A stretch of 64,000 nucleotides of DNA from Myxococcales bacterium (GTDB lineage: Bacteria > Myxococcota > UBA727 > GCA-2721815): contig PBLQ01000001.1 in NCBI GenBank assembly GCA_002721815.1, positions 158,379 to 222,378 on the forward strand. Reading direction: 5' to 3'. The position numbers and the translations under genes were made by a program. Of this stretch, positions 33,159 to 38,462 are shown in pieces. Within the stretch, counting starts at the first letter, position 1. Every line of letters begins with the position of its first letter. The notes below the pieces were generated by a model. The model was not told the origin of the DNA, did not search any database, and saw only the letters and a program-made list of their open reading frames with translations.

Positions 33159-34823
33159 TTATGGGAAAGAACTGGGGCAGCTCCAGTTGCCTTGGTAGCT
33201 GTCGATGGGCAGAATGGTCGCTGCGCCATTGTTCCATTGCACCTTCGCCACTTCCCAGAAATCATCGTTGGCGTTCATCATGCGGTCGTACTGAGCCTCA
33301 AGGCCCCCATTCACAAATACCTTGATGGTGGTGTTGGTGGCAGATTCCGTCTGGGTGTCACAACCTGTATTACCGTAAAAATGAACACCGATGGTATATT
33401 CGCCGTCACCCGGGTTTTCGATGTTGATGTTCTCGGGGCCATAGCCACAGAGGTCGTCGATGTCTAATACGGGATCGCCGGCGCTGGCTTGCGCACCATC
33501 ATTGTCCCAATCAGGGGGGCCCATAAAAGAGGTGCTTTTGCAGTTCACGTAGTAACAAGATTCATCGCTCGAGCAATAATTGGCGGTGCCTCGTTTCAAA
33601 TGCAAATCCATATCGTTGGCATCCACGTCCCAGCTGAGCTGAATGTGAAAATTGTCGGAAGGCACCGAGTTAATGGTGACCGTGGCCTCGTTGCTTGACT
33701 GGGCCCCGAAGTTATCCCAAACGGTAAGCTTCACCACGAACGTACCAGCCACATCAATGCCGTTCACAGTGCCGTTGGCGCTGTCAAACTGAAGCTGCGT
33801 GGTCATGGCGTCAGGTGTGGAAAGCGTCGCACTGGATTCCATGGGCTTTTCGGTCAGTTCCCAAAGATAAGTGGCGATGTACCCATCTTCAGTGCCTGGG
33901 ACACTTTCTTCACCCGTTAAAAGGACGTCGTCGAGCGGTCGAATCACTGGGGCTGCCTCGGTATTGGTCACCCCATTGATTTTAGCAATCTTAGCAACCG
34001 CGGTGGGCGCACTTGCACCTAAAACTGAGAGTGGCACCGTGGCGGTGGGTCTTTCAGGATCGTTGGTGGCGAGCTCCAATGCGCCGGTGACGGGTCCTAT
34101 CTGCTGCGGCATGGCCGCCAAGACCACACTGACACCGGTACCGGGCGCAATCCCAACCAACTCCAAAACACCACCTGGATAAAACACTGGGTCTGGGGCG
34201 GCAGGGTTTTCCTGAGCGAAGGACACACCTTCGATGAAAAGCTCTCGCTGCCCCACGTTTTCTACGGTGATGCTGCAAAAGGCTTCGACGCCAACACCCA
34301 CGCTACCAAAGTTACACTCTGGTGGGCTGATGTGAAGTTCGGGGCGTCCCAAGTCCTCGCCACCGCCAGTGAATTGAATGAAGACATTCTCTCCCTCTTC
34401 GATGTTCACCGCATTGGTTTCAATGATTAGTGTTCCTGAGACCACAGAGGCCACCGTTGGAACAAACTTGATGGTGATCTGAACGCCCTCTTTCCCCTCG
34501 GAAGCTGTGATGGCGTCGGGAACCTCACCCTCAATGGCAAAGGCCGGGTCCGTGTCCTCGGAGAATTTTACATTGTACAGATTCAAAGCCACAGGGGACG
34601 GATTGCGAATGGTGAAGGTGTAAAACCGGCCTTCACCGATGGGGACGCTGCCAAAGTCGTATGCGCAGTCCCGAACCAAGTCTTCAGCACAGATGGATTC
34701 TGTTGCGCTTTCGGGAGTTCCAATCTCAATTTTCGGTGCGACCAAAGTGAGTTCTTCGTCCTGACAGGCAACAAAACTCAACGCGAAAAGCACAACCCAG
34801 AAAAAAGAAGACCTTAAAACCAT
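33159..34823 (-). CDS. Secreted choice-of-anchor D/PKD lipoprotein
   Basis: Exported protein of 554 residues. A signal peptide ends LSFVAC, probably lipidated. Residues 50-290 hold two HYDIN/ASH-like domains of the choice-of-anchor D kind (YDFGSVPIGEGRFYTFTIRN; CNFGSVGVGVEAFCSITVEN). A PKD-like domain follows (TYLWELTEKP, FVVKLTVWDNFGAQSSNEA), then a C-terminal DUF2135-like domain with IQLSWDVDANDMDLHLKR and cysteine pairs. ATG at 34823 has GGAG seven bases upstream. Such proteins recur at the surface of Myxococcota-like bacteria. Function unknown. Confidence 0.85.
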   Translation of the reverse strand: MVLRSSFFWVVLFALSFVACQDEELTLVAPKIEIGTPESATESICAEDLVRDCAYDFGSVPIGEGRFYTFTIRNPSPVALNLYNVKFSEDTDPAFAIEGEVPDAITASEGKEGVQITIKFVPTVASVVSGTLIIETNAVNIEEGENVFIQFTGGGEDLGRPELHISPPECNFGSVGVGVEAFCSITVENVGQRELFIEGVSFAQENPAAPDPVFYPGGVLELVGIAPGTGVSVVLAAMPQQIGPVTGALELATNDPERPTATVPLSVLGASAPTAVAKIAKINGVTNTEAAPVIRPLDDVLLTGEESVPGTEDGYIATYLWELTEKPMESSATLSTPDAMTTQLQFDSANGTVNGIDVAGTFVVKLTVWDNFGAQSSNEATVTINSVPSDNFHIQLSWDVDANDMDLHLKRGTANYCSSDESCYYVNCKSTSFMGPPDWDNDGAQASAGDPVLDIDDLCGYGPENINIENPGDGEYTIGVHFYGNTGCDTQTESATNTTIKVFVNGGLEAQYDRMMNANDDFWEVAKVQWNNGAATILPIDSYQGNWSCPSSFP

Positions 34824-34929
34824 TAGCAAACTCCATCGCCGTTACCAGCTCATTTGTCCCGGATGATCAGTGTAGCACCCGTGCGAAAGATCCGAAATGC
34901 ACCTTTCTTAATTATATACCTACGAGTGG

Positions 34930-34995: not shown

Positions 34996-36561
34996 TTAGA
35001 GGTCTTCCACCGCCTCCACCCGTAGCACCTGCTTTTGGTTGACCACGAGCCGGAATTTTGAATTTTTACGTTTATTTTCAGCACCTTCCGACTGTGAGAC
35101 CACCAAATTGATGTGATACACCCGGGGCATCTCCTTGCGCTTAAAACGACCGGTCCGAGAATCAAAATACCGAACGGATTCCACAGGGTCGTCCAATCGA
35201 GCCAAAAAATCAGCCAGGTTGAAGCGGAATCGTTGCTGAACGCCATAACGGGGAGGCACAGGGTTCCCGTTGGCCTGCTGAAAAGACATCATGCGTGCGT
35301 AGTGAATGACGTTTTCATTTTCGATGGTCAACCCCGAAACGGTCCGTTCTCTTGATCGTATCTCCTTGATTTCTTGAGGAATTTCTTCTTCATTCAGCAG
35401 GTGGAAGCGCTCTTTTGCACGTCCATGAAAGGCCCCCAGCTCCACCTGAGCCAAGGCATCTCCCAACACCTTTCGATCTTCATCCCAGGGTGTCCAACGC
35501 ACGGCCAGGGCCTGCCGAACCCATTCTTTAATCCGGTCTTTGAGAGTGTAAGCGCCCACGGCCACCCCTAAAAAGAGGAGTCCTTCCTCCGTGGCCCATG
35601 CGCCGGTCCAAAGGGGCAGCTGCGCCAAAGTCGCCCAAGTGGCCGCCAAACCAGCTGCGATCATGGCAGCCGTGTTTCGTACAAATGGGTCTCGTTTGCC
35701 GCCACGGGTATTCACATAGAGGCTTTGTTGAAGTTCTTTTTTTAAAAGGCCCATTCGATAGGTAAACAATTCGTGGTCAGCACGCCATGGAACCAACAAT
35801 CCTTGATCGATGCGCCATCCATTGACCCTTTCTGCAGTTCGAGCCACCTCCAGTCGCATTTGCGTCAGGAGTCCGGTGCCATCGCGCAGACCATCAGAGC
35901 GATCCAGCGCCGTGGCCAGTTCGGCCAATGCCTCATCGGTCACCGCTCCCAAATACTCTGCACAAAAGTACAAGGCCGACCGTAATTCTTCGTGCACCAC
36001 AGCCCCATGTGCCAAAGCTTTGAGCCGAATTCGTCTCAACGCATTAAGGGTAGAAAGTAAATCCGCACAGAAGCTGGTGAGCTCGGACTCCAAAGTCGTA
36101 AGCTGCAGGTTGTGGATGTTCGCACTTCGAATGCTTCTTTTAAGAAATCGTAATTTCACGTCGACAGCATCAGCGACCTCTGCGCCCAGTAATTGTGCCA
36201 AGGCGGTCAGGGCGTCACCAGAAGGTGCCTCTTTTGTTAGCAGCAAGGGTAGTTTTCGCCGGAGAATTGTAGCCGGATTATCGGGCGAATTTAAATCGTA
36301 CAACTCTTGTAATTTTAAATCAGGGCTGTGCATCCGCATATAAACCTGAGAGCGCTTATAAAAATCTCGGTTTGAAAGGGTGTCGGTCACGGGCCCAAAA
36401 CCAGCCGGAAAAAAGAAGTACATATCGGTCAGGTATTCAGTGGTGGTGGATGCGGTTTCGGGCAAAGGAAAAAACTGGCGTATCTCGATGGTACGCAAAT
36501 CTCTGGCCTCCACCACCAAACGGGCAGGGCTGTGAGCCACGCTTATGCTCGAGGCAACCAC
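34996..36561 (-). CDS. Uncharacterised membrane protein, 521 residues
   Basis: No family recognised. Residues 1-290 are mainly helical and charged with an acidic/aromatic N-terminus (RTIEIRQFFPLP). Two hydrophobic segments (about 300-318, MIAAGLAATWATLAQL, and 325-345, LLFLGVAVGAYTL) form a hairpin in the membrane. The last 180 residues look soluble, with NLADFLARLDDPVESVRYFD and a basic end. The GTG start (GAGG seven bases upstream) is inside the end of the decayed sensor gene by 19 bases, so the two are made together and probably act together. An internal GTG seven codons later is an alternative start. Confidence 0.7.
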   Translation of the reverse strand: MVASSISVAHSPARLVVEARDLRTIEIRQFFPLPETASTTTEYLTDMYFFFPAGFGPVTDTLSNRDFYKRSQVYMRMHSPDLKLQELYDLNSPDNPATILRRKLPLLLTKEAPSGDALTALAQLLGAEVADAVDVKLRFLKRSIRSANIHNLQLTTLESELTSFCADLLSTLNALRRIRLKALAHGAVVHEELRSALYFCAEYLGAVTDEALAELATALDRSDGLRDGTGLLTQMRLEVARTAERVNGWRIDQGLLVPWRADHELFTYRMGLLKKELQQSLYVNTRGGKRDPFVRNTAAMIAAGLAATWATLAQLPLWTGAWATEEGLLFLGVAVGAYTLKDRIKEWVRQALAVRWTPWDEDRKVLGDALAQVELGAFHGRAKERFHLLNEEEIPQEIKEIRSRERTVSGLTIENENVIHYARMMSFQQANGNPVPPRYGVQQRFRFNLADFLARLDDPVESVRYFDSRTGRFKRKEMPRVYHINLVVSQSEGAENKRKNSKFRLVVNQKQVLRVEAVEDL

Positions 36562-38036
36562 AATACAACCTCGTCGTGACTAATGGTAATTTGCCCACCC
36601 ACGGGCGACAAAATAATGGTAAGCAGCTGTGCCACTTGTTTTTCCATGGGGCAACCGAAAGTCACCAACACGGCATTGCGTTTCGCCTGGACGTCGAAAG
36701 AAATGGTATGGTCACGCAAAGTCGCCGCAATGGTGACCAACACAATCGCCAAAGCCCAATAAAGCCGTCCCTGAACTTCGGCCACCAATTCTACGGGCAA
36801 CTTATCCGGCACCACCAGTTCATTATTTGTTTTCTTAAAAAGAGGTTTTGCCATACGTAAAGCACGTCGCCAAAGCTTGTAAAAAGGAATCGGCTCCACA
36901 CGGTCATCAGCCGCCAAGAATCGCGGCGGGTTCGACAAGAAATCTGCGCTCACAAATACAATAAATGCTTTCTCTTGCGGTCTTTTTAATACATGCAGCT
37001 TGCCAAACACTTCATTTTCAATGGGTTCACTCAAATGGAGCGTCGCAGAAACCGGGTGGGCTTCGGCCTCCGCCCTTTTGATGAGCGCAACAACATGGGG
37101 CTGTGAAACCCAATTTTTTACCTGGTCTTGCCCTTCCGGATGATGAAAGCCCATCAAACGGCGCGCCAAACCATTAGCGGCCAACAGGCTGTCGTACCCA
37201 TCCCAAACGATAACCGCCGAAGGCAACGACTCGATGAATTGCTCCAAAACCACGCTGGGCTCATGGGCTCCCGCCACCCGCCTGCGCAAACGAAAGGCCA
37301 GCTGTGCCAACTGTTCTCCCACCGACTGTAAGCTGTGTAACTGATCGGGCATGGGCGTGCCCAAATCACCTTCGCCAAGTTCTTGCAGGTACCCAATCAA
37401 TCTTCGCTGCGGGCCCATGTAGAACACCAACCACAACAAAACCATGATCATGGCCAATGAGAGGGCAATGGCCAAGCCATTGCGAATGCCCGATTGCCAC
37501 TCGGCCTGCATGGGGCCGGGCACCGCCAAGCGCATCAACAAGGTGGCGGGCGCGTTCGGGTTTTGGGTCAAGGGAACCTTAAAAATGACCTGTTCAGCGG
37601 TCGTGGGGCCGGCCGCGAACGCACTAATTCTGGGCGGGTATCCGGGCAATCCAGGTGAACTGTGATTTGTGAGCCAGGTGGTGAATTCAGAGCTGCTCGG
37701 CCATTCGCCAAAGACCTGTCCCGGTGCAGCGCCCTGTTTCGTGGTCATCAAAACCGCGCCGCTCTCCCCTAACCAGCGGAGTTGGCCATGGATGAGATGG
37801 GCTTGGTTCAACACAAACTGTTTTCGTTGGGCAGCGGGTATCTCTTGCGCCTTTTGCTGAATTCGCGCCAGTACCCAGGCCTCGTTCTGGGCCCAATCGC
37901 TCTCGATCACGGGGCCGGAATTCTCCAGAAAAACCCAGGTTGCAGGCAGCAGCGCCAATGAAAACAGAACCGCAAAACCAAGAAAGAGTCGAAAATGGAC
38001 TAACAGTGCACCCATAAATCTCCAAAAGTGCTTCAA
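36543..38036 (-). CDS. Decayed sensor histidine kinase-like membrane protein
   Basis: Protein of 497 residues with sensor-kinase architecture but no kinase signatures. Helix 1 (about 15-38), a periplasmic domain, helix 2 (about 190-210, ALSLAMIMVLLWLVFYMG), a HAMP-like linker (RRLIGYLQELGEGDLGTPMP) and a PAS-like domain (SAVIVWDGYDSLLAANGLA) are present. No H-box, N-box or G-box follows; the end, GGQITISHDEVVLWLPRA, resembles the closing strand of a degenerate ATPase domain. It is probably a signal-sensing scaffold rather than a kinase. Coupled with the unknown membrane protein downstream. Confidence 0.65.
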   Translation of the reverse strand: MKHFWRFMGALLVHFRLFLGFAVLFSLALLPATWVFLENSGPVIESDWAQNEAWVLARIQQKAQEIPAAQRKQFVLNQAHLIHGQLRWLGESGAVLMTTKQGAAPGQVFGEWPSSSEFTTWLTNHSSPGLPGYPPRISAFAAGPTTAEQVIFKVPLTQNPNAPATLLMRLAVPGPMQAEWQSGIRNGLAIALSLAMIMVLLWLVFYMGPQRRLIGYLQELGEGDLGTPMPDQLHSLQSVGEQLAQLAFRLRRRVAGAHEPSVVLEQFIESLPSAVIVWDGYDSLLAANGLARRLMGFHHPEGQDQVKNWVSQPHVVALIKRAEAEAHPVSATLHLSEPIENEVFGKLHVLKRPQEKAFIVFVSADFLSNPPRFLAADDRVEPIPFYKLWRRALRMAKPLFKKTNNELVVPDKLPVELVAEVQGRLYWALAIVLVTIAATLRDHTISFDVQAKRNAVLVTFGCPMEKQVAQLLTIILSPVGGQITISHDEVVLWLPRA

Positions 38037-38225
38037 AAATAGTATTTTAGCTCATTCGGTGCACCAAAAGCAATAATTCAAGCTTATGGCGCCCAAAGAT
38101 GGTCGAGGGGGTTGTCAAATCCAATGAAACTGGATAGTTCCGCTGTGTAGCATGTGACAGATCCCTCGAAGGGCTGTTACCAACTAGTTTTTAAGTGTTT
38201 GACCCTAGGGGTCGCGAGGATATCT

Positions 38226-38462
38226 ATGAGCCGCTTTCCAGTTAAGAGCCGTCGCCGTTTGGTTGACTATTTTTTGCAAAATAAAGACGTTGAAATCAGC
38301 TACTTGAACCCAGACGTCTTGCGTCGTTTTCTTTCTGTCGAAGGGAAAATCTTGCCCGGGCGTCGCTCTGGCCTGACCGCAAAAAACCAACGTAAGGTCA
38401 CCAAAGCCATTAAACGCGCACGCGCCATGGGCCTGCTGCCCTTCACCAATCACGACGCTTAA
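38226..38462 (+). CDS. rpsR: Ribosomal protein bS18, stand-alone and without cysteines
   Basis: Small-subunit ribosomal protein of 78 residues. The diagnostic core is [20 protein letters not shown], then [22 protein letters not shown]. Many S18 proteins carry an N-terminal zinc site (CxFC type) and sit between rpsF and rplI; this copy has no cysteine at all and no such neighbours. ATG at 38226 has AGGA five bases upstream; 24 codons before it are open but have no ribosome site. A small hairpin, GACCC-TAG-GGGTC (38201-38213), stands just before the ribosome site and may matter for control. Confidence 0.93.

Follow-up and report, generated by a model that had tools for sequence, protein, structure and literature searches.

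A 64,000-nucleotide stretch of Myxococcales bacterium DNA (contig PBLQ01000001.1, hereafter the window) carries two overlapping minus-strand genes, whose products we call P2 and P1. The upstream gene encodes P2, of 497 residues when counted from a TTG codon, and the downstream gene encodes P1, a membrane protein of 521 residues that starts at a GTG. Both open reading frames, as well as their 19-base overlap, were found where the initial annotation had placed them. P2 has the sensor half of a PhoR-type histidine kinase and a predicted remnant of its catalytic (CA) domain, and all of its full-length copies lie directly before a P1 gene.

The domain layout of P2 had been read as periplasmic sensor, HAMP and PAS, and this reading holds. 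It is supported by the alignment of seven P2 proteins with 17 fetched PhoR-type kinases, all of which have an H box, by the hydropathy of two membrane helices that flank the sensor, and by Pfam HAMP, which is detected in six of the seven P2 proteins, the window copy being the exception. The sensor domain displays a G.VL.DSE...NH..RPE pattern common to the P2 relatives and the true kinases, and the PAS domain matches the kinase PAS in hhalign with a probability of 95. Pfam and NCBIfam recognise just a PAS-like stretch and a partial PhoR match in the window P2, of which residues 227-360 score 24 and 22.8 bits against TIGR02966 and NF008235 (cut-offs 334.2 and 390). With its two membrane helices, periplasmic domain, HAMP and PAS, P2 is a predicted PhoR-type sensor devoid of kinase motifs.

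The initial annotation described the H, N and G boxes as lost. They are indeed absent by hidden Markov model (HMM) and by alignment, but that account was incomplete, as the whole DHp domain is gone and a CA remnant at residues 380-497 had been overlooked. P2 tracks the kinases across sensor, HAMP and PAS, after which the entire DHp domain, including HELRTP, is missing. The alignment picks up again where the CA domain begins, with the N-box asparagine missing, and is interrupted by a second gap that covers the segment with the G1 and F boxes, the lid and the G2 box, before it resumes at the last helix and strands ('GG...LWLPRA'). None of the seven P2 proteins matched HisKA, the profile of the phospho-acceptor H box, or HATPase_c, that of the N, G1, F and G2 boxes and the lid, at E <= 0.1, and no functional H or N box was therefore recognised. 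An annotation artefact or frameshift is ruled out by the identical deletions in seven genomes. At the level of sequence, these comparisons establish that P2 descends from a kinase whose catalytic motifs were lost.

Several lines of evidence identify what remains after the PAS domain. The remnant matched the kinase CA domain in hhalign with E 5.9e-4 and a probability of 29, against 0.6 or less in eight column shuffles and 1.4 or less when the kinase DHp and PAS domains were the targets. In the structural model of P2, residues 380-497 align by VIA to CA domains with Z up to 14.7, including ThkA (3a0z; Z 14.6, 115 residues, 2.4 A), and display the helix-strand-helix-strands-helix-strands sandwich of the GHKL fold, at a local pLDDT of just 52-73. 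In a reverse test, an HMM built from the remnant alone gave 13 weak matches in further genomes, of which 12 fell on the kinase CA region as delimited by a separate CA profile. Profile, reverse HMM and predicted fold thus agree that P2 keeps a structured, lid-less CA (GHKL) remnant.

The junction between the two genes is also conserved. A GAGG sits seven bases upstream of the P1 GTG, and in five of the seven genomes (the window, G003, G006, G010 and G025) the GTG falls 19 bases short of the P2 end, and the P2 codons ahead of it contain a purine-rich stretch; G006 has an additional ATG with a one-base overlap. The GTG start of P1 is well supported because this geometry recurs. The P1 start may thus be what preserves part of the P2 C-terminus, although G008 retains the Leu-Trp codons with no P1 start placed there. 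As for P2 itself, the TTG at 38036 shows no visible ribosome site while a GGAG precedes the ATG at 38015 (residue 8), which makes this ATG the more likely start and would give a protein of 490 residues. A promoter scan returned 1 site against 2.7 in shuffles, and terminator-like sites numbered 10 against 6.0 (sd 2.8).

This sharing of signals bears on a first alternative, namely that P2 is a decaying kinase gene retained only for the ribosome site and start of P1 that it contains. The fast divergence of P2 is consistent with this idea, as is the double use of the purine-rich stretch and of CTGTGG at the P2 end as P1 signals in most copies. However, seven genomes from four families share the deletions and still have an intact P2 frame of 470-538 residues, and the two genomes with no overlap (G016 and G008) still hold a full P2. 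Moreover, dN/dS is below 0.45 in congeneric P2 pairs: among G003, G008 and G010 it amounts to 0.32-0.43 in the remnant and 0.26-0.39 over the whole of P2. Identity among these three copies is 60-61% in the remnant, 57-65% in the sensor part and 71-75% in the PAS domain. We consider simple decay to be very improbable.

The two genes differ greatly in their distribution. A first scan of genome contigs with P1 alone returned no relatives, and sequence searches of 58 genomes gave matches to P1 in 18 and to P2 in nine, two of them partial. By profile, P1 was found in 112 of 195 genomes of the phylum, and full-length P2 in seven (the window, G003, G006, G008, G010, G016 and G025). These seven matches have E <= 1.4e-179, followed by a next match at 3.9e-43; the next matches extend over at most the first 364 positions, mostly in longer frames, and a profile of the P2 C-terminus alone gave strong matches in the same seven genomes. 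P2 stands directly before P1 in all seven. Nearby genes at two further P1 loci weakly match the whole of P2 (L075, E 2.4e-9; L060, 4.7e-5) and were left out of the count because the CA remnant was not matched. Among the called genes of the listed P1 loci, P2 appeared just at L045, which is on the same contig as G016; L046, truncated at a contig end, fell outside this test. Genes were called by a codon-position model rather than taken from curated annotation, and their starts are approximate.

Beyond the phylum, P1 occurs in Bacteroidota, Chlamydiota, Elusimicrobiota, Verrucomicrobiota, Kiritimatiellota, Cloacimonadota and one Oligoflexales genome, and a scan of named genomes, Myxococcota included, found at least 43 loci. 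Of the 16 genomes in the order of the window, five carry both genes, while the other 11 lack a full-length copy of either, with a partial P2 match in G015. P1 and full-length P2 were found in none of the eight genomes of one family of this order (f5), whose sizes range from 0.3 to 1.8 Mb, compared with 2.8-7.7 Mb in the rest.

Phylogenies point to a single origin of the linkage. In a tree of 69 P1 proteins, built by a quick method and with some long branches outside the linked clade, the seven P2-linked P1 form one clade (SH-aLRT 99). This tree excluded L110 and L120 (no P1 gene in the neighbour table), L045 (same as L031), L046, L081, L086 and L044, while alignment A1 excluded L041 (a near copy of L042) and L044 (a short call). 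In a tree of the sensor-HAMP-PAS region, the seven P2 form one clade against the 17 kinases (100/100), with the window P2 on a long branch. The copies of G003, G006, G008 and G010 group together in both trees. Given the linkage in seven of seven genomes, the single P1 clade and the single P2 clade, the simplest reading is a single attachment of P2 to one branch of the P1 family, which is the older of the two, followed by joint inheritance of the pair across four families.

The initial annotation had proposed that the two proteins form a two-part unit. The constant position of P1 directly downstream of P2 agrees with this proposal; the rest of the P1 family does not, as 105 of its 112 genomes in the phylum have no full-length P2, so that P1 does not need P2. 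P1 occurring alone in most genomes, which the annotation took as contrary to a unit, is thus true of the family at large and not of the P2-linked clade. Because the P1 family is older, wider and mostly devoid of P2, the two-part unit is best described as a clade-specific arrangement of an independent family.

Little else around the pair is conserved. The surroundings are kept between the window and G006, with S18-like and DivIC-like genes upstream and an ASH-domain gene downstream, and none of five tested window neighbours was found in the fetched stretches of the other five P2 genomes, which marks the P2-P1 pair as the conserved unit. The gene downstream of P1 (window 33159-34829) is lipoprotein-like, with ASH/HYDIN-type and PKD-type domains, and its homologue downstream of the pair in G006 is 43% identical. 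On the other side, divergent from P2, a ribosomal S18-like gene (window 38154-38462) stands beside a DivIC/FtsB-like gene. The called P2 start of G016 is overlapped by the gene of a response regulator that has GAF and HD (HD_5) domains (L031:9845-11224), and in G025 the gene divergent from P2 (L033:5364-6083) resembles, by eye, an MglA-type small GTPase.

A second alternative takes P2 for an accessory pseudokinase, similar to RocA or DivL, that uses its membrane, HAMP and PAS parts to pair with a true kinase, or else binds a response regulator, P1 being merely co-expressed. RocA and DivL offer a precedent for this mode of action in the available text on them, and kinases of this kind in the phylum have the same sensor, HAMP and PAS parts as P2. 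Candidate partners exist as well: the genome of the window has a PhoR-type kinase (G000:C25:81122-82162, frame of 604 residues), five of the seven P2 genomes (G000, G025, G010, G006 and G003) display, among the matches listed, a P2-profile match in a separate frame of 510-687 residues, and the regulator directly upstream of P2 in G016 has an HD output. Nevertheless, the same texts describe RocA and DivL as retaining the DHp domain that P2 lacks, no regulator is conserved beside the P2-P1 pair, and full-length P2 was found apart from P1 in none of the 195 genomes, while PhoR-type kinases are widespread without P2. We therefore regard this alternative as unlikely.

P1 was initially described as a protein of no known family with a hairpin of two membrane helices. 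The first statement stands: neither Pfam nor NCBIfam gave the window P1 anything near a cut-off, and among 34 family members the best scattered matches were E 0.002 (Pfam) and E 0.009 (NCBIfam), each in one member. Membership of a curated family was rejected; a profile search of PDB sequences gave just synaptobrevin chains at E >= 0.077, which we took as chance. The model of P1 is good (pLDDT 87, pTM 0.81, 34 sequences) and is composed of strands (residues 15-78), long helices (84-279), the hairpin (292-356) and an all-beta domain (361-518). Both hairpin helices (292-318 and 327-356) are helical in the model, and 31 of the 34 family members pass the hydropathy threshold of 1.6 for at least one helix; the window P1 itself falls below it. 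Positive charge flanks the hairpin on either side, suggesting that both ends of P1 lie inside. Invariant columns in the alignment of 34 rows are Y338, K341, D342, R343, K345, G380, R446 and Y482.

Structure searches assigned no fold to the whole of P1. Foldseek of the complete protein against the PDB gave no match at E <= 0.001, and a whole-chain VIA search returned helical-bundle matches alone, the best being to designed helical proteins (Z 11.9, residues 78-261 only). A CorA-like channel was rejected, since a phage magnesium transporter from the viral search (E 0.1) and a CorA coiled-coil chain (Z 8.1) were within the helical-bundle noise. A tunnel-type (CYTH) barrel with an insertion, an idea raised by an 'EIKL' strand, produced no CYTH match. 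PADLOC, run on the window proteins only, matched neither P1 nor P2, and no P1 relative appeared in the viral contigs searched; a role in anti-phage defence was rejected. The coordinates of all features are collected in Table 1.

Table 1. Features of the P2-P1 locus, in window coordinates
Feature	Position	Strand	Basis
P2, DHp-less pseudo-histidine kinase	36543..38036	-	ORF (open reading frame), profile search, alignment
GGAG, probable P2 ribosome site before ATG 38015	38020..38023	-	sequence reading
P2 membrane helix 1, residues 11-29	37950..38006	-	hydropathy
P2 periplasmic sensor domain, residues 30-181	37494..37949	-	alignment
P2 membrane helix 2, residues 187-205	37422..37478	-	hydropathy
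P2 HAMP-like linker, residues ~206-258	37263..37421	-	alignment, Pfam
P2 PAS domain, residues ~259-365	36942..37262	-	profile, alignment, hhalign
P2 predicted pseudo-CA (GHKL) remnant, residues 380-497, lacking ATP lid and N, G1, F and G2 boxes	36546..36899	-	profile, model, reverse HMM
GAGG, probable P1 ribosome site within P2 codons	36569..36572	-	sequence
19-base P2/P1 overlap, P1 GTG inside Leu-Trp codons	36543..36561	-	sequence, 7 genomes compared
P1, 521-residue membrane protein of a widespread family with no curated name	34996..36561	-	ORF, profile searches
P1 N-terminal strands and long-helix domain, residues 15-279, predicted cytoplasmic	35725..36519	-	model
P1 hairpin of two membrane helices, residues 292-356	35494..35688	-	model, hydropathy
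P1 KDRIK motif, residues 341-345, inner end of helix 2	35527..35541	-	alignment
P1 C-terminal all-beta domain, residues 361-518, predicted cytoplasmic	35008..35481	-	model

The neighbours of P1 in other lineages give only a hint of its function, which points to transport or its regulation. Of 17 loci of the Myxococcaceae family, 15 have an MFS gene adjoining P1, in either orientation, and a HAD-type gene commonly comes after; MFS also adjoins P1 in L111, a locus of another family. In L072 (5474-9371) and similar Myxococcaceae loci, P1 is flanked by an MFS gene and a HAD-type phosphatase gene, after which come genes that we take to be pyruvate dehydrogenase subunits. In Bacteroidota, a sodium:sulfate-symporter-type gene adjoins P1 in 11 of 25 loci. 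A recurrent run in L055 (4000-8413) and similar Bacteroidales loci consists of a 214-residue gene, a gene presumed to be CYTH-like from its motif, the symporter-type gene and P1. One common gene, presumably dehydrogenase-like, follows P1 in all four Elusimicrobia loci. These counts include near-copies and uneven sampling, with contig ends uncorrected.

Such neighbours raise a third alternative, in which P1 is a component or regulator of a transporter gated by P2, the signal altering flux rather than gene expression. The combination of a membrane hairpin and large cytoplasmic domains in the P1 model, together with the adjoining MFS and symporter-type genes, is consistent with such a role. On the other hand, neither type of neighbour was found in the P2-linked clade, the counts elsewhere come from uneven sampling with near-copies counted repeatedly, a pair of helices is a small number for a transporter that does not oligomerise, and structure searches matched P1 to no transporter fold. 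Hence, we see a gated transporter as rather unlikely.

Based on these findings, we propose that P2 works as a receptor without phosphorylating and that its CA remnant docks onto P1, the protein that would carry the output, a proposal that we consider to be about evenly poised between right and wrong. A PhoR-type histidine kinase would have become the receptor P2 by losing its DHp domain and the ATP-binding half of its catalytic domain. Signals sensed in the periplasm would pass through HAMP and PAS to the non-catalytic remnant, which would most likely offer the cytoplasmic domains of P1 a surface to dock on, the two proteins presumably being made together by coupled translation. That P2 binds P1 and controls it, and the direction of the signal, we infer. 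A broader version, in which the CA shell acts as an allosteric coupler that drives P1 in a phosphate-free mode of transmembrane signalling, for a family found in at least seven phyla, is offered as a doubtful but conceivable extension.

Several observations weigh against this proposal. The hhalign probability of the CA remnant is low, and the P2 model is poor overall (mean pLDDT 45.5, with two sequences in its alignment), so that the structural match to CA domains rests on a region with block-mean pLDDT of 52-73. P2 diverges much faster than P1 (21-28% and 39-46%, respectively, for the window against its relatives), and dN/dS in comparisons with G006 is higher, up to 1.0 in the remnant; these values are near saturation, which makes them uninformative. 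The genes do not overlap in two of the seven genomes, where gaps of 36 bases (G016) and seven bases (G008) separate them, and the response regulator just upstream of P2 in G016 would suit a phospho-signalling partner. The many P1 genes with no P2 count on the same side.

If the CA remnant does drive P1, P2 would illustrate a route from a kinase receptor to a purely allosteric receptor. It would also provide the first regulatory or functional handle on the P1 family, which is present in 112 of the 195 phylum genomes and in several other phyla and has no Pfam or NCBIfam entry.

The comparison with known systems places P2 among the pseudo-histidine kinases, not the histidine kinases, and P1 in an unnamed family, as far as can be judged from their predicted proteins. 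PhoR-type kinases (TIGR02966, NF008235) resemble P2 in the periplasmic sensor between two membrane helices, the HAMP and the PAS, and differ from it in having the DHp domain with its H box and all ATP-binding boxes. In the open-licence literature we came across no account of a pseudo-histidine kinase built like P2, without a DHp domain, which is not proof of absence. According to the available part of the text, DivL of Caulobacter keeps its DHp domain, with Tyr for His, and a CA domain described as dispensable, and binds DivK~P (PMC4211667). DivL is similar to P2 as a histidine kinase fold that was repurposed and has no kinase activity; P2, in contrast, has no DHp domain and is constantly accompanied by an unrelated membrane protein. 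RocA of group A Streptococcus, in the portion of its description available, contains six putative membrane helices as well as a DHp domain and acts on CovS (PMC7028121). Like P2, it is a membrane protein with kinase homology and a degraded CA domain, and it works by protein contact; that portion describes no P1-like partner for RocA. The conservon protein CvnA8 of Streptomyces, as presented in the accessible sections of its report, has DHp and HATPase domains, autophosphorylates at H183 and is encoded with roadblock, DUF and GTPase proteins (PMC13343842), which makes it, like P2, a membrane histidine-kinase-like protein encoded with non-regulator partners. P2 has lost its DHp domain and kept part of its CA domain with one partner across four families; because DivL, RocA and CvnA, its closest counterparts in kind, all keep DHp in these partial accounts, P2 stands apart among pseudo-histidine kinases.

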